Origin: a virus | IMG/VR virus record: IMGVR_UViG_3300021963_000421 | Location: 1-32,614 of that record | Reading direction: 5' to 3' (one strand) | Length of the DNA stretch: 32,614 nt | In this document: positions 5,480-24,696 of the stretch, piece by piece | Layout: the number at the start of each line of letters is the position of its first letter | How positions within the stretch are numbered: the stretch's first letter is position 1 | Made by a program: the position numbers and the translations under genes | Notes under the pieces: model-generated | The model's database searches: none | Seen by the model: the letters and a program-made list of their open reading frames with translations, nothing else | Told to the model about the DNA's origin: nothing

Positions 5480-5643
5480 TGGCGACTACCAACGAGCTGG
5501 ACGTTCGTCTGACCTCGCACGAAGCCGTGTGCGAGCTGCGCTACGACACTATCAGTGCCAGGTTAAAGCGCATCGAGCATATCGGTATCACTGTTGCCGG
5601 GTTCATCATTGCCTTACTTCTCCACATTGCCCTGAAAGGCTAG
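5479..5643 (+). CDS. Small membrane protein, XhlA/holin-accessory-like (54 aa)
   Basis: ATG at 5479 overlaps the stop of the previous gene (TAATG). Residues 1-34 are a charged amphipathic helix with regular Leu/Ile spacing (RYDTISARLKRIEHIG). Residues 35-52 form one membrane helix (ITVAGFIIALLLHIAL) and the C-terminus is short and basic. This one-helix layout, with a coiled region before a C-terminal membrane anchor, resembles the haemolysin XhlA family, which is found with holins in many phages. Location at the head of the lysis genes agrees. It could be a holin partner or antiholin; sequence alone does not decide. Confidence 0.6.
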   Translation: MATTNELDVRLTSHEAVCELRYDTISARLKRIEHIGITVAGFIIALLLHIALKG

Positions 5644-5645
5644 AC

Positions 5646-6167
5646 ATGAAACAGCTGCTCCTCCTCGCTCTAATGCCGATTAGTGTGTCTGCTGCTGACC
5701 TGATGATGTGCAACGGCGAATACGCGCTGTGTGCTGCGTCAGGCTCCACGCCTACGGGCAAGACAATAACGGTCAAAGGTAAAGTGTTTCAAGAGGGCAT
5801 GGCAGTCTGTCCCGTCCTGACGGGACGCAGCGTAGCAAACGGTGCATTGATGAATAACTCCTGCGATGCCCCTGCCGGTAAAGTGTGGAGCCTTTTTAGT
5901 ACTGTTAGCGAAGCGCCACAAGCGCCGAGCTGGGCAGTTGCGCCGCTGGTAAGTCGATCATTCACTCTCGGCAAAGATTCGGGTATGTCAAACCAGTGGT
6001 CATTCCTTTGCGATAAGCAAGCGAAGAAAACCAACGGGGTTACATTGGCATCCTGCTACGGCCCGATAAACGAATCACCGGCTACTAACGGGCATATCAA
6101 GCCGGGTGCAAAGATCATTACTGACGCGCCGGTAGGAGTGCTTAACCCGGTAGGAGGGAATTTCTAA
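5646..6167 (+). CDS. Secreted cysteine-containing phage protein of unknown function (173 aa)
   Basis: ATG at 5646 starts a clear Sec signal peptide, MKQLLLLALMPISVSA, with a signal-peptidase-I site before ADLMM. An open frame continues upstream, but only this start gives the signal peptide. The mature part is about 157 residues with six cysteines (after CNGEYALC, CPVL, NNSC, FLCDK, SCYGP), suggesting disulfide bonds in the periplasm. The repeated small beta segments and Pro/Gly content fit a compact secreted domain. It lies between the XhlA-like gene and the holin, so a role in lysis timing, envelope protection or superinfection exclusion is possible. No lipobox or spanin feature is visible. 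I recall similar unnamed proteins in environmental phages. Confidence 0.6.
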   Translation: MKQLLLLALMPISVSAADLMMCNGEYALCAASGSTPTGKTITVKGKVFQEGMAVCPVLTGRSVANGALMNNSCDAPAGKVWSLFSTVSEAPQAPSWAVAPLVSRSFTLGKDSGMSNQWSFLCDKQAKKTNGVTLASCYGPINESPATNGHIKPGAKIITDAPVGVLNPVGGNF

Positions 6168-8930: not shown

Positions 8931-9236
8931 TTAAAATTGTATTTCGTCGTCAATATCAGCAAAAGTCTTAAGCTCTTTTTTGGGTTCTGTTTTTTGCTCT
9001 ACGGGCTGCGATGCTTTTGCCAATTCCAAAACTTTCGCTTGAAACGCCGAATTGATATACGCGTGGTTCCAGTATTTGCCAGTAGCCGCATTCTTTGTGC
9101 TTGGCATGGAGACAAACTCGCCTTTCTGCGACTGCTGAATCCTGCAACCCTTCAATTCCAAGAACGCATCCTTGCCTTCCGACGAATGCAAATTGATGTT
9201 AAAACTCCGGTCGTGCCAGACGATTGAAATGTGCAT
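8931..9236 (-). CDS. Putative single-stranded-DNA-binding protein with SSB-like acidic tail (101 aa)
   Basis: ATG at 9236 overlaps the stop of the exonuclease gene (TAATG). Residues 1-70 form a small beta-rich domain (FLELKGCRIQQSQKGEFVSM, then PSTKNAATGKYWNHAYINSA), similar in pattern to SpoVG-like and other small phage DNA-binding proteins. Residues 75-90 are a charged linker, and the protein ends DIDDEIQF. Bacterial SSB ends in an acidic tip closing with Phe (DDDIPF type) that recruits partner proteins, so this end looks like a mimic. Location right after ERF and the exonuclease supports a role in recombination or replication. The fold assignment is inference. Confidence 0.6.
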   Translation of the reverse strand: MHISIVWHDRSFNINLHSSEGKDAFLELKGCRIQQSQKGEFVSMPSTKNAATGKYWNHAYINSAFQAKVLELAKASQPVEQKTEPKKELKTFADIDDEIQF

Positions 9237-9853
9237 TATTTAACCTTTTTGAGTTGAGATAACATTTTGTCTACAGTGTCCAAAAAGGCGACGACCGCAG
9301 TTTCCAGTTCAAGAATACGCGCTGAATCGCGTTTGAAACGAACAACGAACAATTGTAAATGTTCAGGCAAATCAGGACGAAAACTAACAAAATCGCACCA
9401 GTCCAGACCTGTGCAAGCCATCTGCCACATCATCTGATTTTTGTATCCTGCCGGGACTACTCCGGCAATCAAGTAAGCCAGATGCGTTGCCACCTTCGGG
9501 CACTTGATCTCTACCAGCCCCGAATTGCCTACCAAACCGTCAGGTGAGGCACCAGCGCGTTCGATGGTCGGATGGATACATAACCCCACCTCATCAACAC
9601 TAAACCCTGTCTCGGCCTCATACGCTGATCTAGCGAGGGGTTCGGTTTCGGTGCCGTATTGCATGTGGACGTTGGTATAGTCCGAACCTTGAGGCTTGCC
9701 GGTAAGGATTTCAGCGACGAGCTGTGCCTGGTAGTCCCGAAATCCCGCTGTTTCGGGCTTCATCAGGACGTTGGAAATCATGCTTGCTGTAACCCGTCCG
9801 GCACGAGCTGCGAGCCATTCCGGTGTCCCCTGAACTGCGTCTATAACTTTCAT
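9236..9853 (-). CDS. YqaJ-type (lambda-exonuclease-like) viral recombinase nuclease
   Basis: A 205-residue 5'-3' exonuclease of the PD-(D/E)XK fold that would resect double-stranded ends to make single strands for the ERF annealase. Motifs: GTPEWLAARAGRVTAS (residues 9-24) is the family opening, HMQYGTETEPLARSAYE (63-79) gives the first acidic site, SPDGLVG (103-109, Asp105) and LVEIKCPK (113-120, Glu115 and Lys117) form the D...ExK core. ATG at 9853 overlaps the ERF stop (ATGA), so the two are translated together. Length is normal for the family. Confidence 0.9.
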   Translation of the reverse strand: MKVIDAVQGTPEWLAARAGRVTASMISNVLMKPETAGFRDYQAQLVAEILTGKPQGSDYTNVHMQYGTETEPLARSAYEAETGFSVDEVGLCIHPTIERAGASPDGLVGNSGLVEIKCPKVATHLAYLIAGVVPAGYKNQMMWQMACTGLDWCDFVSFRPDLPEHLQLFVVRFKRDSARILELETAVVAFLDTVDKMLSQLKKVK

Positions 9854-10431
9854 GCTGCCGCCAATTCAACTTTGCGCTTGTTTTTAGCATTGGTAAGGGT
9901 TGCCATTGCCATCGAGTCCTGCCCCGTCTGAGCCGCTTTGTAGGCCGTTTTGAAGGCTGTTTGAAGATCATCAAGCGTGGCGGCAGCGTGGAATGCTGAA
10001 ATGTGGTCTGTGCAATCCATCGTCGGCTTGGGTTTTGCGGCGCTGGCTGCGTTGCCATCGTCGTCCTCAGGTGCCACTCCAACCGCAGCAGACAGGCTGT
10101 AGCGGCGAGCATAAGTAAGTGCGCTACCGTAGCCCTGCGCGTCAATCTTGCTTACCGGCAGGGACAGGATGCCGCAGGAAATCCATTCGCCGGATGAATG
10201 CAGCAGAGTTGTTTCAACGCGCACTTCGTCTTTGTCTGACGGCTCTACGGTCTGGATGTAACTCAGGCCATTGGCGCTAAACGCGGCTCGGATGGCTTCT
10301 ACAACGCTGGCAAGGTCGGCGTAGCGGCTTTTGAAAAATGGGTTTGCGGAGTCTTTAAGCGCTCCTTTCATTATGCCCTGAGCCTGAGCCAGTGCTGCTG
10401 CCAGTCCTGCTATTGATTCTGATTTTTTCAT
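9850..10431 (-). CDS. erf: ERF-family single-strand annealing protein
   Basis: A 193-residue recombinase that anneals complementary single strands; in P22 Erf is needed to circularise the linear genome after injection. Residues 1-130 carry the family domain: LAAALAQAQGIMKGALKDS, NPFFKSRYADLASVVEAIR, and the hallmark YGSALTYARRYSLSAAVGV with EDDDGN after it (about residues 100-126). The C-terminal part is Ala/Lys-rich. ATG at 10431 has GAGG seven bases upstream. It lies directly before the YqaJ nuclease and the SSB-like gene, giving a complete recombination set. P22 Erf uses terminal redundancy, in line with a permuted genome. Confidence 0.92.
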   Translation of the reverse strand: MKKSESIAGLAAALAQAQGIMKGALKDSANPFFKSRYADLASVVEAIRAAFSANGLSYIQTVEPSDKDEVRVETTLLHSSGEWISCGILSLPVSKIDAQGYGSALTYARRYSLSAAVGVAPEDDDGNAASAAKPKPTMDCTDHISAFHAAATLDDLQTAFKTAYKAAQTGQDSMAMATLTNAKNKRKVELAAA

Positions 10432-11353: not shown

Positions 11354-11400
11354 GGCGTATTCCGAAACCCCCGCGTGGGCAGGGGCAAAGGAATGATTAG

Positions 11401-11586
11401 TTAATTTAAAAAAGAAACTCCTGCTTCAACATACATGCGAAAAGTTGATTTAGCGCATTGCAATTTATTTTCTGCATCGCATGAATTGCCTATTGAGTTG
11501 GCGATTGCTTCAGCGCGGTCAAAACCAGCGGGAACAGTTAGCTGTTCTGCCCATACATAAAATTCTTTGCGTTCTTGATATGTCAT
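11401..11586 (-). CDS. First gene of the leftward early operon (61 aa)
   Basis: ATG at 11586 follows AGGA eight bases upstream and gives MTYQERKEFYVWAEQLTVPA; the longer open frame would run into the promoter region. The rest is helical (FDRAEAIANSIGN, ENKLQCAKSTFRMYVE). As the first gene after the divergent promoter it should be made earliest. No family recognised. It could be a host-takeover or regulatory protein by position only. Confidence 0.6.
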   Translation of the reverse strand: MTYQERKEFYVWAEQLTVPAGFDRAEAIANSIGNSCDAENKLQCAKSTFRMYVEAGVSFLN

Positions 11587-11610
11587 TTTGTTTATCCTGG
11601 TGGTGGTGCG

Positions 11611-11675
11611 TTTGCAAGCTGGTATGTAAAGGATTATAATGCGTCCAGCAGCATTTGCAACATTTATTTGCAAAT
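11611..11675. promoter_or_regulatory. Operator region with three TTTGCAA repeats
   Basis: TTTGCAA occurs at 11611-11617, 11654-11660 and 11667-11673; the last lies in the perfect palindrome ATTTGCAAAT (11666-11675). Two of the copies form the -35 boxes of the divergent promoters. The Cro-like protein encoded 45 bases downstream is the obvious candidate ligand. Binding by it is inference. Confidence 0.6.
11633..11660 (-). promoter_or_regulatory. Leftward early promoter
   Basis: Reading leftward: -35 TTGCAA (11660-11655), 16 bases, -10 TATAAT (11638-11633), a perfect -10 box. It would start transcription about 40 bases before the first leftward gene. Its -35 box is one of the TTTGCAA repeats, so a repressor bound there would block it. 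Confidence 0.7.
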
Positions 11676-11696
11676 AATATAAGATATATTTATATT
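11668..11696 (+). promoter_or_regulatory. Rightward early promoter for the cro-like gene
   Basis: -35 TTGCAA (11668-11673), 17 bases, -10 TATATT (11691-11696). The predicted start is about 15-20 bases before the ATG at 11720, which has AAGGG as ribosome site. The -35 overlaps the ATTTGCAAAT palindrome, matching the layout of the leftward promoter in mirror image. Confidence 0.6.
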
Positions 11697-11719
11697 TTAA
11701 TGAAATCAAAGGGTTACGT

Positions 11720-11914
11720 ATGAAAACTAACGACGTTCTAACGCATTTTGGTGGGAAACGAGCGACTGCGGAAGCGCTTGGGCTATCAACGCAGGCTGTT
11801 CAAGCGTGGAAAACGATCATTCCGCAAAAGCAGGCGTGGCGCATCGACCGGCTGACAAACGGGGTGTTGAAAATCGACGAGGCACTATATGCAACAGGCA
11901 GGAAATATGATTGA
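11720..11914 (+). CDS. cro: Cro-like transcriptional regulator (64 aa)
   Basis: A small helix-turn-helix protein of the Cro/YdaS type. The opening MKTNDVLTHFGGKRATAEAL is helix 1 and 2, GLSTQAVQAWK is the turn and recognition helix, and IPQKQAWRIDRLTNGVLKID closes the domain, all typical of P22-Cro-like proteins (the IPxxxAxxIxxLTxG ending). It is the first gene of the rightward operon, next to a divergent control region with TTTGCAA repeats, as expected for Cro. No CI partner is present, so it probably acts alone to turn early promoters down. Confidence 0.85.
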   Translation: MKTNDVLTHFGGKRATAEALGLSTQAVQAWKTIIPQKQAWRIDRLTNGVLKIDEALYATGRKYD

Positions 11915-12287
11915 TCTAAAAGACCAATTTGCTTTGGCGGCGATGGCTGCACTTTTACAGCGCACATCAAACTCTATTCCGGACTATGCTGATGTTGCAA
12001 ATTACGCTTGGCATTGCGCGGAATTTATGATGAGCGAACGGCAGAAACGTATTGATCTTGCTGCGCTGAACGAAAAAAGAAACAACAGCGACATGCGAAC
12101 GCTGAAGTTATCAACGAGGCTGCATTACGCTTTGCTGTCAGAGGATTTGTACACGATTGCAGACATCTGCGCTTACACCGAAAAAGAGATTCTGAAAATC
12201 CCAAACATCGGTCGCACACAGCTCGCGCATTTGATAGCGGCTTTGGCTGCCGTTGGTGAAAAATTGGCAGTGCCAGGTGAAAAATGA
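11907..12287 (+). CDS. Protein with RNA polymerase alpha-CTD-like C-terminal domain (126 aa)
   Basis: ATG at 11907 follows AGGA and overlaps the end of cro by eight bases. Residues 1-45 (MIDLKDQFALAAMAALLQRT, HCAEFMMSERQKR) are a helical unit common in phage early proteins. Residues about 65-120 (LKLSTRLHYALLSEDLYTIA, DICAYTEKEILKIPNIGRTQ) follow the pattern of the E. coli RNA polymerase alpha C-terminal domain, including its helix-hairpin-helix PNxG. Compared from memory, the residues equal to Arg265 and Gly296 are kept, but Asn268 and Lys298 are Tyr and Thr. It may redirect host polymerase or bind DNA. Confidence 0.7.
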   Translation: MIDLKDQFALAAMAALLQRTSNSIPDYADVANYAWHCAEFMMSERQKRIDLAALNEKRNNSDMRTLKLSTRLHYALLSEDLYTIADICAYTEKEILKIPNIGRTQLAHLIAALAAVGEKLAVPGEK

Positions 12288-12558
12288 CACGCACACTTGG
12301 CGGCTTACTGACTGGCGCGAATATCGAGACAAATGCAAAACAAACACGCAGGTATGCGTGAGGCATGTACCAGTTGGGCATAAATTCCTGCTGATACGCT
12401 CAAACGAAGAATTCATAATGATGCAAATCAGGCACAAAACACCATCAGGAACAGAATACGTGGTTAGAAGGATAGGGGAGACTATCGACAGAACCTTACA
12501 TCATTCCTGCCACGTAGTTTTGTTCGGAAAACAATGGACTGCCTCGGCTGCAACTTGA
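12274..12558 (+). CDS. Small basic protein of unknown function (94 aa)
   Basis: The start is uncertain: GTG at 12274 is in frame, and another GTG at 12253 would add seven residues. Both lie in a short direct repeat (GGTGAAAAAT) at the end of the previous gene, and neither has a strong ribosome site. The product is basic and beta-rich (VCVRHVPVGHKFLLIRSNEE, MMQIRHKTPSGTEYVVRRIG). No motif recognised. The end overlaps the next gene. Confidence 0.5.
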   Translation, partial: QVKNDTHTWRLTDWREYRDKCKTNTQVCVRHVPVGHKFLLIRSNEEFIMMQIRHKTPSGTEYVVRRIGETIDRTLHHSCHVVLFGKQWTASAAT

Positions 12559-12770
12559 TTGAAACCTCGCCGGTCACACTGCGCGACGGTCGCATCGTCT
12601 GCTCATCCTGCGAGTGCTGGCGGTTCGAGTGCGAGGCTCGGCATGTGCTAACAAAGCCGGACGTTGAAAAACGCGATTACCTGGAAGCCATCGGCAAGAA
12701 GCGTGGCGAGGCAGCGCGGCAGGAGCTGCGGGAAGAAATGATAGCTTTACACAAGATGAAAACTACTTAG
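12534..12770 (+). CDS. Small zinc-finger-like early protein (78 aa)
   Basis: ATG at 12534 overlaps the end of the previous gene. Residues 1-36 hold MDCLGCNLIE and CSSCECWRFEC, two CxxC-type pairs that look like a zinc ribbon. The rest is a charged helix (YLEAIGKKRGEAARQELREE) ending MIALHKMKTT. I recall similar CxxC...CxxC...R-x-YL proteins in phage early operons, with no known role. Its last 39 bases are repeated about 630 bases downstream, at the far side of the methyltransferase gene. Confidence 0.65.
   Translation: MDCLGCNLIETSPVTLRDGRIVCSSCECWRFECEARHVLTKPDVEKRDYLEAIGKKRGEAARQELREEMIALHKMKTT
12724..12762 (+). repeat. Direct repeat, left copy (39 bp)
   Basis: AGCTGCG at the left and ATGAAAA at the right bound a 39-base segment that matches 13352-13390 at 34 positions by hand count. 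Here it codes the end of the zinc-finger-like gene (ELREEMIALHKMK). It marks the left edge of the small methyltransferase segment. Confidence 0.75.
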
Positions 12771-12802
12771 ATGCGTAATTACTTTGATAAGAAGGTAGTG
12801 GG

Positions 12803-13369
12803 ATGAGAGTCTTAATAGCCTGCGAATATTCTGGCCGAGTCCGTGATGCGTTTATTGCACTTGGACACGATGCCATGAGTTGCGACCTTTTGCCAACGGA
12901 CACTCCTGGACCGCATTATCAGGGCGACGTATTCGATGTGATCGGCAACAACTGGGATTTGATGGTCGCACATCCACCATGCACACATTTATCTGTAAGT
13001 GGTGCACGTCACTTTATAGCTAAACAAGCCAGCGGCGTGCAACAAAAAGCCTTGGCATTTGTTGGCCGATTGCTTGTTGAGCCAATTCCAATGATTGCCT
13101 TGGAAAATCCAATCTCAATCATTAGCAGCCATTTCAGAAAACCCGACCAGATTATTCAACCATGGATGTTTGGTCATGGCGAAACTAAGGCCACTTGTTT
13201 GTGGTTAAAAGGATTGCCAAAGTTGACGCCGACTAACATTGTTGATGGTCGTGAGGCACGAATTCACAAGATGCCGCCAACCCCTGACCGTTGGAAACTC
13301 AGAAGCACAACATATCAAGGCATTGCTGATGCCATGGCTAACCAATGGGGAAGCTGCGAGAGGAAATGA
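12803..13369 (+). CDS. Small DNA cytosine-methyltransferase-like protein (188 aa)
   Basis: Looks like the short C5-methyltransferase-related family found in many phages. The opening MRVLIACEYSGRVRDAF is the cofactor-binding strand and helix (motif I position), CDLLPTD follows, AHPPCTHLSVSGAR (56-69) carries the Pro-Cys of motif IV (Cys60), and LENPIS (100-105) replaces the ENV of motif VI. There is no QRRxR motif VIII and no long target-recognition region, so activity and target are uncertain. The last residues, SCERK, are encoded by the right copy of a direct repeat whose other frame codes the end of the neighbouring gene, suggesting a recent insertion. Confidence 0.75.
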   Translation: MRVLIACEYSGRVRDAFIALGHDAMSCDLLPTDTPGPHYQGDVFDVIGNNWDLMVAHPPCTHLSVSGARHFIAKQASGVQQKALAFVGRLLVEPIPMIALENPISIISSHFRKPDQIIQPWMFGHGETKATCLWLKGLPKLTPTNIVDGREARIHKMPPTPDRWKLRSTTYQGIADAMANQWGSCERK

Positions 13370-13390
13370 TAGCTTTACACTGTATGAAAA
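13352..13390 (+). repeat. Direct repeat, right copy (39 bp)
   Basis: Pairs with 12724-12762. In the frame of the left copy it reads LREEMIALHCMK and then NAL and stop, with two synonymous codon changes (cgg/cga, gaa/gag). The methyltransferase ends inside it in another frame. The repeat also supplies the -35 box of the promoter at 13374-13402. Confidence 0.75.
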
Positions 13391-13402
13391 ACGCTTTATG
13401 AT
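13374..13402 (+). promoter_or_regulatory. Promoter for the replication genes
   Basis: TTTACA (13374-13379), 17 bases, TATGAT (13397-13402): five of six matches at each box and ideal spacing. It would give a leader of about 130 bases before the GTG at 13539, holding the long inverted repeat. Function inferred from sequence. Confidence 0.6.
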
Positions 13403-13454
13403 TTATCCGCGCTGTGACAAGCGCATAGAAACCGATAGAAACAGTCTCTTTTGG

Positions 13455-13522
13455 GCTGGCCTATCGCCCGTATCAAAACCCTAACGGGTGTCGGCTTCCG
13501 GAATTGTCACCGATAGGCCAGC
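13455..13522 (+). other. Structured leader: 12-bp stem closing a small hairpin
   Basis: GCTGGCCTATCG (13455-13466) and CGATAGGCCAGC (13511-13522) are perfect inverted repeats 44 bases apart. Inside, CCCGT (13467-13471) pairs with ACGGG (13484-13488), and further short pairing is possible in 13489-13510. The ribosome site AAGGAG (13527-13532) starts five bases after the stem. No U-tract follows, so it is not a terminator. It may control translation of the initiator, or act as a DNA cruciform near the origin. Confidence 0.6.
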
Positions 13523-13538
13523 ACCAAAGGAGACTGTT

Positions 13539-14318
13539 GTGTTTTATTTTCAGCATCACGTAGGCGATTACCGCCGCGACACAGGGCATCTAACCCTGCT
13601 GGAACACGGAATCTACCGACAACTAATCGATCTTTATTACATCACTGAAAAGCCGCTCGATGCGTCTGCAATGCGATTGGTATGCGTTCGCACTGCGGAT
13701 GAGGAGCAAGCATACAAACGTGTTCTTGCTGACTTTTTCCATGAACGCAAGGGCAAGTATTTTCACAAGCGGTGCGACTTTGAAATTTCCAAGTACAAAG
13801 ACAAGTCTAGCAAGGCAACTGATAGCGCTAGAACTAGATGGAATAAAATCAAAGACTTAGCTGATGCGGACGCATTGCCACCGCATTGCGATGATGATGC
13901 GGACGGTATGCTAACCAAAGAACCTATTAACCTAATAACCAAAGAACCAAAGAACCTACAAACCAAAGAACCTACAAACCTAAAAAAAGAAAAGTCAAAA
14001 GAAGAAAGCGCTACGCGCCCAACAAGATTTGAAGCCTGTCCTTTTCCTGATAAATGGAAAGCCTTTTGTCAGCATGAACGTCCTGAACTTGACGCGCTAA
14101 ATACTTTTGAGCAATTTTCAGATTATTGGGCTGGCGTACCGGGAACGAAGGGAAAGAAGCTGGATTGGAACGCTACTTGGCGGGTGTGGGTACGCAATCA
14201 AAAAGGGGGGGCCCAGACCAAAGGCAACTCACTTGCAGAACGTAACCAAGCCGTAGCTGCTTTGTGGCTTGCCGAACAGGATGCCAAAGATAAAGGGGTA
14301 GAGCATGAAATCAACTGA
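13539..14318 (+). CDS. DUF1376-type replication initiator (lambda O-like role), 259 aa
   Basis: GTG at 13539 follows AAGGAG with an ideal six-base spacer, so it is preferred over the in-frame GTG 51 bases upstream. Residues 1-90 form the DUF1376 domain (MFYFQHHVGDYRRDTGHLTL, then YRQLIDLYYITEKPL), which is found in phage replication proteins. Residues about 126-149 are three tandem 8-residue repeats (TKEPINLI, TKEPKNLQ, TKEPTNLK), coded by 24-base DNA repeats, then a Lys/Glu-rich linker. The C-terminal part (CPFPDKWKAFC to DWNATWRVWVRNQ) is a second domain typical of this group. Followed by a loader-like gene, it likely opens the origin and recruits host helicase. Confidence 0.8.
   Translation: MFYFQHHVGDYRRDTGHLTLLEHGIYRQLIDLYYITEKPLDASAMRLVCVRTADEEQAYKRVLADFFHERKGKYFHKRCDFEISKYKDKSSKATDSARTRWNKIKDLADADALPPHCDDDADGMLTKEPINLITKEPKNLQTKEPTNLKKEKSKEESATRPTRFEACPFPDKWKAFCQHERPELDALNTFEQFSDYWAGVPGTKGKKLDWNATWRVWVRNQKGGAQTKGNSLAERNQAVAALWLAEQDAKDKGVEHEIN
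13914..13985 (+). repeat. Three 24-bp tandem repeats in the initiator gene (likely origin iterons)
   Basis: Units start at 13914, 13938 and 13962, each opening ACCAAAGAACC and sharing AACCTA near the end. A purine-rich, A-rich tract (13982-14010) follows at once. In lambda the origin is made of iterons plus an AT-rich stretch inside gene O; the layout here is the same. That the repeats are an origin is inference. Confidence 0.6.
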
Positions 14319-14865
14319 CAAACAGCGGTTTTGTGAAATGCTGACCGGCTTGGGCGAATATTACGGCAAGCCGATATCCAAAATGATGATGGATATTTAC
14401 GCTCAAGGGCTGGCGAATTACGACATAGACGACATATCCAAAGCATTCAGCACTCATGTGCGAAACCCTGATAACGGGCAATTCATGCCGAAGATTGCAG
14501 ATGTTGAGCGGTCGTTAAATGGCAATTCAGCAACCAGAGCCATGCGAGCATGGAACAAAGTAACAAAGGCTGTGCAGGAAATAGGCACCTACCGCACCGT
14601 TAAATTCGACGATCCTTTAATAAACTCTGTAATTCAAGATATGGGCGGCTGGACTTGCATTGGGCAAATTACCGAAGATGAATTGCCTTTCCGAATAAAA
14701 GAGTTTGAAAAGCGTTACCAAGCGTATTTGCAGATATCGCCATCTGAGCCAGTAACCGCGCTGATCGGCGTATTTGAAAAACAGAACCGCACTGATGGGT
14801 ATTACGAGGATGAAACGGTATTGATAGGAAATTACAACAAAACTTTATCTTTGGAGGCAAAATGA
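14305..14865 (+). CDS. Putative helicase-loader / replication protein P-like (186 aa)
   Basis: ATG at 14305 lies in the end of the initiator gene, with GGGG six bases upstream. Residues 1-75 are helical with the pattern LTGLGEYYGKPISKMMMDIY, then NYDIDDISKAFSTHVRNPDN, GQFMPKIADVER, which is typical of phage proteins placed right after DUF1376 initiators and resembles lambda P/DUF6475-type proteins. The remainder is helical with a Trp-rich segment (DMGGWTCIG). By position it would load the host DnaB helicase. No Walker motif is present, so it is not a DnaC-type ATPase. Function inferred. Confidence 0.6.
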   Translation: MKSTDKQRFCEMLTGLGEYYGKPISKMMMDIYAQGLANYDIDDISKAFSTHVRNPDNGQFMPKIADVERSLNGNSATRAMRAWNKVTKAVQEIGTYRTVKFDDPLINSVIQDMGGWTCIGQITEDELPFRIKEFEKRYQAYLQISPSEPVTALIGVFEKQNRTDGYYEDETVLIGNYNKTLSLEAK

Positions 14866-15059
14866 ATCAATGCGAACAGCTTTTAGAGGCAATGAAACGC
14901 GGCGAACAATTAACGGTTGCCGAAGCGATGAGCCGGTATGGGGTTTACGCTTTGAGTCAAAGATGCGGCGAGTTAATTCGGCAAGGGCATCCTGTAAACG
15001 TCGAGACAATTAAAGTTCAATCTGGAAAACGAGTAGCCCGATACTCGATGACTTTATGA
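14862..15059 (+). CDS. Helix-turn-helix protein (65 aa)
   Basis: ATG at 14862 overlaps the previous stop, with GGAGG four bases upstream. The sequence MNQCEQLLEAMKRGEQLTVA, then EAMSRYGVYALSQRCGELIR, QGHPV is a winged helix-turn-helix like the HTH_39 family, in which the second helix set follows an LTxxEA motif and the wing carries a basic strand (VQSGKRVARYSM). Small proteins of this kind are frequent in phage replication operons and may regulate it. Stop overlaps the NinB gene (ATGA). Confidence 0.75.
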   Translation: MNQCEQLLEAMKRGEQLTVAEAMSRYGVYALSQRCGELIRQGHPVNVETIKVQSGKRVARYSMTL

Positions 15060-15391
15060 TCTGCAAAGTCTGCGAGGAACGCCGTAGCGCGTCTGCAAAC
15101 GCTGCGATGTGGCCTATCCTCAACGCGTGGTCAGAACAGCGCCAGTGGCCTATTAACGGCATCCTCAGCGATATTTCAGCGGATGAGTGGAAGGATATTC
15201 TTACCGCAGCCTTTGAAAACGATGTAAATCCTAGAATTGCGCCTGGATTGCATGGAGGGATGGTGATGCTCGGTCGGAGAACCAGCAGGTATGGGAAGAC
15301 ACGGTTTAGCGAATGGTTGGACTGGCTGAATGCGGAATCTCATCACGCAGGAATCAAAGTACCGGCACCTGCAAGCATGGAGGAATTTTGA
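15056..15391 (+). CDS. ninB: NinB-family recombination protein
   Basis: A 111-residue member of the NinB (Orf) family, a single-strand-binding recombination mediator that stands in for host RecFOR functions in lambda. The family core is plain: QWPINGILSDISADEWKDIL, TAAFENDVNPRIAPGLHGGM, VMLGRRTSRYGKTRFSEWLD, with WLNAESHHAGIKVPAP at the end. The N-terminus is shorter than in lambda and starts with MICKVCEERR, an extra CxxC. It is followed by a Ref-like HNH nuclease, as NinB is followed by other nin genes. Confidence 0.9.
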   Translation: MICKVCEERRSASANAAMWPILNAWSEQRQWPINGILSDISADEWKDILTAAFENDVNPRIAPGLHGGMVMLGRRTSRYGKTRFSEWLDWLNAESHHAGIKVPAPASMEEF

Positions 15392-15699
15392 CGAAAGAAG
15401 AAAAGAAATGGATGGCTGCGGTTGCTGACTTGGGCTGCATCGTCTGCCTGGATGACCATGGATTCGTGCCGTGTCACGTTCATCACATCCTGGTAAACGG
15501 CAAACGGTCAGGGCATCTCAACACCATCGGACTTTGCCCAACTCACCACGAATCAGGTATCAGAAACTCTACTGCGGTGTCCAGGCACCCGTTCCGGCGA
15601 GAATTTGAAGCGCGATACGGCACAGAATGGGAATTATTGTTAAAAACCAAGAGGTTAATATGCCCAAAGGATTTACAGGAAATTACGTTGACCACGTAG
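15388..15699 (+). CDS. Ref-like HNH nuclease (RecA-dependent nuclease type), 103 aa
   Basis: TTG at 15388 overlaps the NinB stop (TTGA) and has GGAGG four bases upstream; no better start exists. Residues 2-45 hold KEEKKWMAAVADLGCIVC, a zinc-binding CxxC, then CHVHHIL (the HNH histidines), SGHLNTIGLCPTHHE with the second metal pair, and FEARYGTEWELLLKTK at the end. This order matches P1 Ref and its relatives, which cut DNA at RecA-made displacement loops, and is close in role to lambda NinG/Rap. It sits with NinB. Confidence 0.8.
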   Translation: MTKEEKKWMAAVADLGCIVCLDDHGFVPCHVHHILVNGKRSGHLNTIGLCPTHHESGIRNSTAVSRHPFRREFEARYGTEWELLLKTKRLICPKDLQEITLTT

Positions 15700-15878
15700 T
15701 TCGGCTTGGAATTAAACGTGCGTTGCAAAACAAAAAACAGCGGGACAATAACTTGAATAAGCAAGCCGACGTTACGGAAATTCTTAGGCAATTATTAAAC
15801 TTAAAGGGTAAAAATGACACCAACGCAGCGCAGCCTGGCAGCTCTCCGCAAACTCGGTTACCTAGTCGAAGTGGTTGA
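15660..15878 (+). CDS. Small basic protein of unknown function (72 aa)
   Basis: ATG at 15660 has GAGG five bases upstream and lies in the end of the previous gene. The product is basic and helical (MPKGFTGNYVDHVVRLGIKR, ALQNKKQRDNNLN, then VTEILRQLLNLKGK). The last 22 residues are low complexity and overlap the next gene by 65 bases, which is unusually long. DNA binding is possible. No family recognised. Confidence 0.55.
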   Translation: MPKGFTGNYVDHVVRLGIKRALQNKKQRDNNLNKQADVTEILRQLLNLKGKNDTNAAQPGSSPQTRLPSRSG

Positions 15879-16698: not shown

Positions 16699-17764
16699 TT
16701 GTGCTTGGAATTTATCAGACCTTGCCAGCGTGCCGCAAAACGGCATCAAAGTAATGAGCACCTTTGCCTGTGGTGGCGGCTCCAGCATGGGATACAAGCG
16801 TGCCGGGTGTGAAGTGATTGCTGCCAATGACATAGACCCAGAGATGGCGTGGCACTACAAGCTGAACATCAAGCCCAAGCAATATTTTCTGTGCCCCATA
16901 AATGAACTACTGACCAAAGAGCTGCCGCCTGAGTTGTTCGAGCTGGACATTCTGGACGGCTCGCCACCATGTTCCACATTTAGCATGGCCGGAAGCCGAG
17001 AAAAAGCGTGGGGGAAAGATAAGCACTTTCGGGAAGGTCAGGCAAAGCAAGTGCTGTCTGACTTATTTTTTGATTATCTTGATCTAGTTGGAAAGCTAAA
17101 GCCCAAGGTAGCTATTGCTGAAAACGTCAAAGGGATGATTCTAGGCAACGCCAAAGGCTATACAAAGCTGATAATGGCGCGATTCAAGGAGATTGGCTAT
17201 CGCCCGCAGTTGTTCCTGCTCAATGCAGCCGACTGCGGGGTGCCGCAGCGCCGCGAACGGGTATTTTTCTGCGCTGTGCGTGATGATATTGATGTGCAGC
17301 CGTTGAAGCTGGCCCCGACGCATAAATGGATTAGCGCAGGTGAGGCGACGAGTGATGTGCAGGTATTGACTGATGCGGAACAGGTAGAAACAAAACCAGC
17401 GCCAAATGATTTGAAATGCTGGCCTCACACATTGCCAGGGGATACTTATTCAACTTTTCTGATGAAATATGAAAAACGAAATGCTTGTTTTAATCAATAT
17501 CGTGTCAATGATAAAAAACCTTCAAACACATTATCATCGACAGTTGGTTTATACACGCATTGGTCAAAATGTCGAACTTTAACTTACCGTGAATGGAAGC
17601 GCTTAGGCAGCTTCCCAGATGACTACCAAGCCAAAACTGATAAGATAGGCAAGTACATGATTGGCATGAGCGTACCGCCTAAAATGACGGAAGTAGTTGC
17701 AAGGGCTGTATGTGAGCAATGGTTAAATGCTAAATCCTTGATTTCATTACAGAAAGCCGCGTGA
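16685..17764 (+). CDS. DNA (cytosine-5) methyltransferase, full length
   Basis: A 359-residue enzyme that moves a methyl group from S-adenosylmethionine to cytosine in DNA. All core motifs are visible: TFACGGG (26-32, motif I), GSPPCSTFS (92-100, motif IV, catalytic Cys96), ENVKG (146-150, motif VI), PQRRERV (187-193, motif VIII), a target-recognition region from about 205 to 300, then LTYREWKRLGSFPDDY (motif IX) and GMSVPPKMTEVVARAV (motif X). ATG 16685 lies in the end of the ParB-like gene (14-base overlap), so the two are coupled. There is no partner restriction gene, so it probably protects phage DNA from host restriction. Confidence 0.93.
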   Translation: MQKPDCAWNLSDLASVPQNGIKVMSTFACGGGSSMGYKRAGCEVIAANDIDPEMAWHYKLNIKPKQYFLCPINELLTKELPPELFELDILDGSPPCSTFSMAGSREKAWGKDKHFREGQAKQVLSDLFFDYLDLVGKLKPKVAIAENVKGMILGNAKGYTKLIMARFKEIGYRPQLFLLNAADCGVPQRRERVFFCAVRDDIDVQPLKLAPTHKWISAGEATSDVQVLTDAEQVETKPAPNDLKCWPHTLPGDTYSTFLMKYEKRNACFNQYRVNDKKPSNTLSSTVGLYTHWSKCRTLTYREWKRLGSFPDDYQAKTDKIGKYMIGMSVPPKMTEVVARAVCEQWLNAKSLISLQKAA

Positions 17765-23484: not shown

Positions 23485-24696
23485 ATGGCTAATAGCCTGC
23501 TTACCATTGATATGATTACCCGGAAGTGCCTCGAAATTCTTGAGAACAACCTGGTTATTTCGCGCAATTGCAACAAAGAGTATGACGACAGCTTCGCTGT
23601 TGAAGGTGCCAAGATCGGTTCGACCTTGCGGATTCGTCTGCCGGATCGTGCCTTGGTGACTGACGGTGCCGCCCTGCAAGTTCAGGACGACAACGAGCAA
23701 TTCACTACGCTGACGGTTTCTAGCCAGAAACACATCGGCATCAACTTCACCAGCGCCGAGCTGACAATGCAGTTGGATGACTTTGCGGAACGTGTTCTGA
23801 AGCCGCGTATCAGCCAATTGGCGTCGAGTGTGGATGCTGACGTTGCTAACGCCTACAAGTCTATTTTCAACACCGTAGGCACTCCCGGCACCACGCCTGC
23901 CACCGCTCTGGTTCTGCTGCAAGCGCAACAGAAGCTGAACGAGTCGGCGGCTCCCATGTCGCCGCGCTACGCAACAGTAAACCCTGCCGCTAACGCTGGC
24001 CTGGTCAACGGTATGACCGGTTTCTTTAACCCGACGGGCACGATCTCCCGCCAGTTCAAGACCGGCATGATGGGTGAAGGTGTTCTTGGCTTTGACGAGA
24101 TGAATATGTCTCAGTCAATTGTCAACCACACCACGGGCAGTCGTGCAGGCACCATTTTGGTGAACGGTGCGGTTAGCACGCAAGGGCAAGCCACCATCAG
24201 CATTGACGGACTTACCGGTGCAACTGACACGGTAACTGCGGGTGATGTGTTTACCATTGCTGGCGTCTATGCGGTCAACCCGCAGACCCGTCTTAGCACT
24301 GGTAGCCTGCAACAGTTTGTTGTGACGGCGGCACAAACGGGTGCTAGTAATGCTTTGGCAAACATGGCTATCTCGCCGCCCATGTACACGTCTAGTAACG
24401 CGTTGGCAACCATTGACGCGTTTCCCGCTGACAATGCTGCGGTGACGTTCGTGGGAACCGCGTCAACCGTGTATCCGCAAAACTTGGTGTATCACAAGAA
24501 TGCGATCACGCTGGCTACGGCTGACCTCTTGCTTCCGCAAGGTGTCGATATGGCTTCGCGTCAAGTGCATAACGGTATCTCGATGCGGATTGTGCGTCAG
24601 TACGACATCAACAACGACCGTATGCCCTGCCGTGTCGATGTGCTGTATGGTTTCAACACCATTCGCCCACCGATGGCCTGCCGTATTTTTGGTTAA
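23485..24696 (+). CDS. Major capsid (coat) protein, P22 gp5 type (403 aa)
   Basis: ATG at 23485 with a strong AAGGAG. It has the family start MANSLLTIDMITRKCLEILE, NNLVISRNCNKEYDDSF, AKIGSTLRIRLPDRALVTDG, and AERVLKPRISQLASSVDADV. Residues about 215-330 are a beta-rich insertion domain (TQGQATISIDGLTGATDT, AGDVFTIAGVYAVNP), as in the P22 coat I-domain. The end NDRMPCRVDVLYGFNTIRPP matches coat proteins of this family. It folds as the HK97 capsid fold. Length is close to P22 gp5 (430 aa). It should be the most heavily made late protein, consistent with its good ribosome site. Confidence 0.93.
   Translation: MANSLLTIDMITRKCLEILENNLVISRNCNKEYDDSFAVEGAKIGSTLRIRLPDRALVTDGAALQVQDDNEQFTTLTVSSQKHIGINFTSAELTMQLDDFAERVLKPRISQLASSVDADVANAYKSIFNTVGTPGTTPATALVLLQAQQKLNESAAPMSPRYATVNPAANAGLVNGMTGFFNPTGTISRQFKTGMMGEGVLGFDEMNMSQSIVNHTTGSRAGTILVNGAVSTQGQATISIDGLTGATDTVTAGDVFTIAGVYAVNPQTRLSTGSLQQFVVTAAQTGASNALANMAISPPMYTSSNALATIDAFPADNAAVTFVGTASTVYPQNLVYHKNAITLATADLLLPQGVDMASRQVHNGISMRIVRQYDINNDRMPCRVDVLYGFNTIRPPMACRIFG

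Follow-up and report, generated by a model that had tools for sequence, protein, structure and literature searches.

A 39-bp direct repeat that brackets a small DNA methyltransferase gene in a viral genome probably marks a join left by mosaic exchange among related tailed phages, at which the end of a neighbouring gene was kept twice so as to preserve a promoter. The sequence analysed here, referred to below as the window, is a virus record of 32,614 bp that encodes a P22-type portal and a terminase. Comparison with relatives shows that the end of their DUF7696 gene overlaps a promoter-like sequence of the replication operon, followed by a hairpin leader and the DUF1376 gene. In the window, the methyltransferase lies between the DUF7696 gene and this predicted promoter; one DUF7696 end completes the gene and the other carries the promoter-like sequence. 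The features concerned are summarized in Table 1.

Table 1. Location of the repeat, the flanking genes, and associated elements in the window
Feature	Coordinates	Strand	Remarks
YqaJ-type exonuclease and ERF single-strand-annealing protein	9236..10431	-	PF09588, E=9.7e-28; PF04404, E=4.4e-26
DUF7696 small Cys-rich protein gene	12534..12770	+	PF24751, E=1.4e-18; phrog_11642; 3' end is the repeated segment
Left copy of 39-bp repeat	12724..12762	+	3' end of DUF7696 gene, L001-like
Junction DNA	12763..12802	+	Likely methyltransferase ribosome-binding site; no significant similarity to leader start or class-2 intergenic DNA
Small DNA (cytosine-C5-like) methyltransferase	12803..13369	+	phrog_757, E=1.5e-69; codons 1-183 family-like
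Right copy of 39-bp repeat	13352..13390	+	Second DUF7696 gene end, detached from any DUF7696 gene
Frame remnant LREEMIALHCMKNAL-stop in right copy	13354..13401	+	Native DUF7696 end, as in single-copy relatives
Promoter-like TTTACA-17-TATGAT	13374..13402	+	-35 inside repeat, -10 across native stop; predicted
Leader RNA	13403..13538	+	Two hairpins, a small one at the 5' end and a long one with arms 13440-13466 / 13511-13538; fold z=-6.1
Replication gene (DUF1376, primosomal-protein-like), GTG start	13539..14318	+	PF07120, E=1.2e-24; phrog_3992, E=8.7e-33
Octamer repeats coding TKEPxNL hinge	13913..13991	+	Right-hand seam at about 13998/14003

The Repeated Gene End

The two copies agree at 34 of their 39 positions, which confirms the coordinates and the count given in an earlier note on this DNA. 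Read in the frame of the upstream DUF7696 gene, both encode LREEMIALHxMK, also as that note had it; of the five differences between them, two are synonymous (CGG/CGA and GAA/GAG) and three are confined to codon x (AAG/TGT). The note took the synonymous changes to mean that each copy was once coding DNA. The two changes are real, but two sites say little by themselves, and it is the relatives described below that carry the case. The right copy was further proposed to be a real gene end, and it does run on to the relatives' native stop: it ends ...MKNAL-stop, where the native C-terminus in near relatives is ...K(N/K)(A/D/N)L-stop and the gene of the closest relative, L001, ends LREEMIALHRMKNDL-stop. 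The left copy instead ends ...MKTT-stop, giving the DUF7696 protein of the window the C-terminus LHKMKTT-stop, as against LHxMKN(A/D)L-stop in relatives.

Mismatches between the left copy and L001 cluster at 12753-12755, beside the junction. True homology of the left copy may therefore end near 12752, in which case the ATGAAAA that follows would be a short chance match or microhomology. No extension of the left copy past 12762 was detected when 12763-12803 was aligned to the right side (shuffle p=0.73), and the similarity of the same segment to class-2 intergenic DNA was not significant (alignment p=0.27).

The window is a metagenomic virus record, and a repeat in such a record could in principle be a product of chance or of assembly. 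Under an independence model, however, only about 6e-7 pairs this good are expected by chance in the whole window, and the same structure is present in a separate contig (L129; JAURGS010000028.1) from a Rhodoferax metagenome-assembled genome (MAG), with 100% identity there and 38 mismatches elsewhere. This contig belongs to the same virus (99.75% identity over 16.6 kb), and its differences from the window are confined to three places: the vicinity of its right end, positions 16772-16773, and its first 334 bases. Since a separate contig is identical over the insertion region, an assembly error confined to one record does not account for it; taken with the chance expectation, this refutes an artefactual or accidental origin, to which we assign next to no probability. 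Most of the mismatches cluster at positions 23847-24267 of the window. Its assignment to a Rhodoferax MAG hints at a Rhodoferax-like host for the virus.

The Methyltransferase Gene

The last five codons of the methyltransferase (184-188, SCERK) and its stop are supplied by the right copy, read in a frame other than that of DUF7696; codon 184 begins at 13352, the first base of the copy, in accord with the proposal that these residues were borrowed. Because 51 of 80 homologues stop 0-3 residues past a conserved QW(G/S/A) motif, the extra residues SCERK are best attributed to the copy that was joined on. Searches of Pfam, NCBIfam, and the PDB with the protein sequence gave no meaningful match. 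A confident AlphaFold model (pLDDT 88.8), however, resembles C5-cytosine methyltransferase domains, its best PDB matches being DNMT3 and M.HaeIII (TM-score approximately 0.45-0.59 on the query); fold and phrog_757 profile both place the protein with phage C5-type DNA methyltransferases, the enzymatic activity being putative. Homologues up to 84% identical sit in phages with other neighbours, and the sequences upstream and downstream of them are unrelated. Searches of viral contigs with both exact junction patterns returned no match; neither a donor with matching flanks nor a parent with DUF7696 followed by this methyltransferase was found among these contigs, which counts against the exchange proposed below.

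Relatives with a Single Gene End

A search of viral contigs with the DUF7696 protein yielded 20 loci. Six close relatives without the methyltransferase (L001, L002, L003, L005, L006, and L008) have one copy of the gene end running directly into the promoter and leader, and the two flanks of the window overlap on the DNA of these relatives, by exactly 39 bp on L001 (4191-4229) and by 38 bp on L003. Further contigs were retrieved with a pattern built on the 3' hairpin arm of the leader, and a 5'-arm pattern added only L130 to them. About 10 more distant relatives found with the leader pattern share the single-copy layout: one DUF7696 end stands before each true leader. Of three matches of this pattern in genome_contigs, L125 and L127 look like chance matches to its 20 bases.

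No second copy was found in the relatives examined, in which the best second 39-mer matches at 19-24 of 39 positions, compared with 34 of 39 in the window. The single-copy relatives examined, very diverged ones included, also have no methyltransferase at this site. The earlier note had predicted that relatives lacking the gene would show one copy joined straight to the leader, and this is the layout of the six close relatives and the distant ones alike; methyltransferase-free relatives that keep both copies, which it had named as evidence to the contrary, were absent among the relatives examined.

A Predicted Promoter within the Gene End

TTTACA (13374-13379), 17 nt, and TATGAT (13397-13402) form one of the best sigma-70-like matches in 11400-15000; the right copy was thus correctly said to supply the -35 box of the next promoter, which is itself a prediction. 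Leader-bearing relatives have a -35-like hexamer in the last DUF7696 codons and a -10 at or just past the stop. The spacing is 17 nt in nearly all of them and 18 in L130; the match in L112 is weak (TTGCGT-17-CATGAT). The position of the -35 hexamer relative to the codons varies among clades, with three registers represented, a sign that selection acts on the DNA of the box and not on the protein alone. In a codon-recoding test of the -35 box, P ranged from 0.035 to 0.37 per sequence and was individually low (0.035-0.057) in the near clade only, which is modest evidence that codon choice in the relatives favours the box.

In the predicted fold of the leader, the long hairpin covers the Shine-Dalgarno sequence of the replication gene (AAAGGAG, 13526-13532). 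The hairpin is kept in 16 aligned contigs with three compensatory pairs in the consensus, and the leader is also present in L130; no Rfam match was obtained at E values up to 1. A small frame (13398-13484) starts at the ATGA that overlaps the native DUF7696 stop and extends into the hairpin of the leader; its counterpart in L006 and L008 continues into the replication-gene frame.

Mosaic Structure and a Proposed Exchange

The closest relative changes along 11700-15700. Just before and into the left copy (12660-12739) the window is 99% identical to L001, whereas the leader is 98% identical to L006 and L008 and about 80% identical to L001. The N-terminal part of the replication gene (13542-13915) is 94-96% identical to L002, L003, and L005, and from 14003 onward identity is 88-92% overall to L007, L009, and L010, reaching 95-96% in the DUF6475 gene; only these last three match the second half of the replication gene and the DUF6475 gene. 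Homology to L003 stops at 13998 and homology to L009 begins at 14003, where the octamer hinge repeats lie. TKEPxNL-like hinge repeats also occur in L001, L002, and L003, and the halves of the replication gene on either side of them differ among relatives.

These changes of closest relative suggest that the repeat marks one of several seams between parental phages. Because 13352-13998 resembles other relatives than does the sequence after 14003, the right copy could just as well record the arrival of a promoter-leader-replication segment beside the methyltransferase; the join at 13351/13352 is the same if a leader-bearing phage received the methyltransferase or if a methyltransferase that already followed DUF7696 received the leader segment. 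In the exchange that we propose, a molecule carrying DUF7696 and the methyltransferase would have been joined, at the last codon of the methyltransferase, to the DUF7696 end of a relative, and the promoter, leader, and replication gene would have been carried along intact by that join. If the predictions hold, an insertion between DUF7696 and the leader that spares both functions requires the gene end on both sides or a new promoter, because the promoter lies in the gene end. A shorter join would have lost the -35 box, and selection for transcription of the replication gene would have kept the partial duplication.

The likely catalyst is the phage's own pair of ERF and YqaJ recombination genes, a kind that tolerates diverged sequence. 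Phage Rad52-like recombinases, including Erf of phage D3, recombine diverged sequences (PMC3945230), which fits the presence of the pair in this genome. A third recombination-related gene, a RecA-dependent nuclease (Ref-like, PF16786), is found at 15391-15696.

Source of the Second Copy

The source of the second copy is the point on which recombination between relatives, the favoured reading and that of the earlier note, competes with local duplication. Template switching or a similar event at methyltransferase insertion could have copied the DUF7696 end twice, the copies diverging afterwards; this is a variant of the same seam that departs from the preferred explanation solely in the origin of the second copy, and we give it a substantial though minority share of the probability. 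LREEM and ATAGCTTTACAC occur together in both copies and in L001 only, each copy matches L001 at 36 of 39 positions, and the right copy is largely free of coding constraint, so that faster change would be expected there. A duplication younger than the split from L001 should, however, leave copies that differ from each other no more than from L001. Compared with L001, the left-side DNA has 2 differences in 94 positions (12660-12753), whereas the two copies have 5 between them in 39, an excess that is not significant (Fisher p 0.11-0.24); over the right copy and promoter, 4 of 56 positions differ from L001. Recombination would be needed anyway, the adjoining leader being of another type (that of L006 and L008). 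Recombination with a relative, as originally claimed, is favoured as the more probable origin; the substitution counts do not separate it from local duplication.

Two other accounts change more than the source of the copy. Were the two copies and the methyltransferase ancestral, recombination across the repeats would have removed the gene from the relatives. Direct repeats this long could recombine, and the single copy of L001 resembles the left copy at the two synonymous sites but the right copy from codon x on, the pattern expected of an excision product, although few sites are involved. All other single-copy relatives examined, in contrast, have their own native gene end, none has the methyltransferase at the site, and the L001 leader is only 80% identical to that of the window; loss is accordingly improbable. 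Still less credible is movement of the methyltransferase as a transposon-like or homing unit with the repeat as its target-site duplication. The insert is bounded by a direct repeat and members of the family occur in unrelated neighbourhoods, but 12763-13351 contains no transposase, homing endonuclease, or terminal inverted repeats, and the unrelated sequence on both sides of the homologues also speaks against such a unit. A repeat of 39 bp with 13% difference is, moreover, atypical of target-site duplications.

Comparison with Known Systems

The window provides a clear example of a known route of gene gain in phages. In mycobacteriophage Island3, gene 68 has a 60-bp 3' end in common with gene 67 upstream of it, and Brujita has a single recombinant copy; recombination between the copies was proposed (Pope et al. 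2011, PMC3029335). The likeness lies in an extra gene beside a repeat of the upstream gene's 3' end (approximately 60 bp there) and a gene-free relative with one copy. Here, too, repeats of the neighbour's 3' end bound the extra gene, and gene-free relatives are single-copy. The single copy of L001 has the pattern of a left/right recombinant, but at few sites. In Island3 the extra gene and the upstream gene agree in their C-terminal residues, whereas here the methyltransferase reads the copy in another frame. The window adds a promoter-like sequence in the copy and a larger set of single-copy relatives, and while no direction could be assigned in the Island3/Brujita case, the many single-copy relatives here favour gain. 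This case offers a specific explanation for the partial duplication of a gene at a phage mosaic seam: the upstream gene contains the predicted promoter of the next operon, so that both functions must survive the join, such overlap of regulatory and coding DNA limiting which joins are viable. Its direction can also be argued from many relatives, unlike that of the published mycobacteriophage case.

Boundary-sequence and relaxed homologous recombination models of phage mosaicism (PMC3029335, PMC3233612, PMC3945230) likewise invoke short shared sequence at module borders and Rad52-like recombinases, Erf included, that exchange short diverged sequence; in the window, by contrast, we identified no homology able to guide the methyltransferase-side junctions. 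The promoter-stem-loop (PeSL) cassettes of T4-type phages (Arbiol et al. 2010; Comeau et al. 2014), as they are cited in PMC4503421, resemble the locus in placing a conserved promoter and stem-loop at a seam by exchangeable genes. As described there, PeSL is a promoter-terminator motif with many copies per genome in T4-type phages; the locus studied here combines a predicted sigma-70-type promoter inside a gene end with a long leader hairpin that spans a ribosome-binding site, and it occurs once, in a phage with a P22-type portal. Assignment to a mobile regulatory cassette of the PeSL type, with several shuffled loci per genome, was rejected: the window record has no second copy of the leader, the extra matches being its own hairpin arms.

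It is conceivable, though we hold it only tentatively, that the promoter-bearing gene end, the leader with its hairpin, and the hinge that the octamer repeats encode in the replication gene constitute an exchangeable replication-start cassette with two joining points, every import of which leaves a partial-gene scar. Import of such a cassette beside a new gene would have to leave a partial gene copy, because the promoter is hidden in the upstream gene.

Other Arrangements at the Locus

At four of the DUF7696 loci (L004, L007, L009, and L010), DUF7696 is followed by another small gene that has a promoter-like sequence of its own, and the leader is absent. In L009, a 273-amino-acid gene (1199-2020), PAPS-reductase-type by eye, lies between ORF101 and DUF7696; neither flank is duplicated, making it a nearby insertion without a scar. 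In L130, the DUF7696 C-terminus has been replaced (5499-5651, reverse-complement coordinates), yet TTTACA-18-TATGAT is found at the gene end before the leader, and a second kind of DNA-methyltransferase-like gene lies just upstream.
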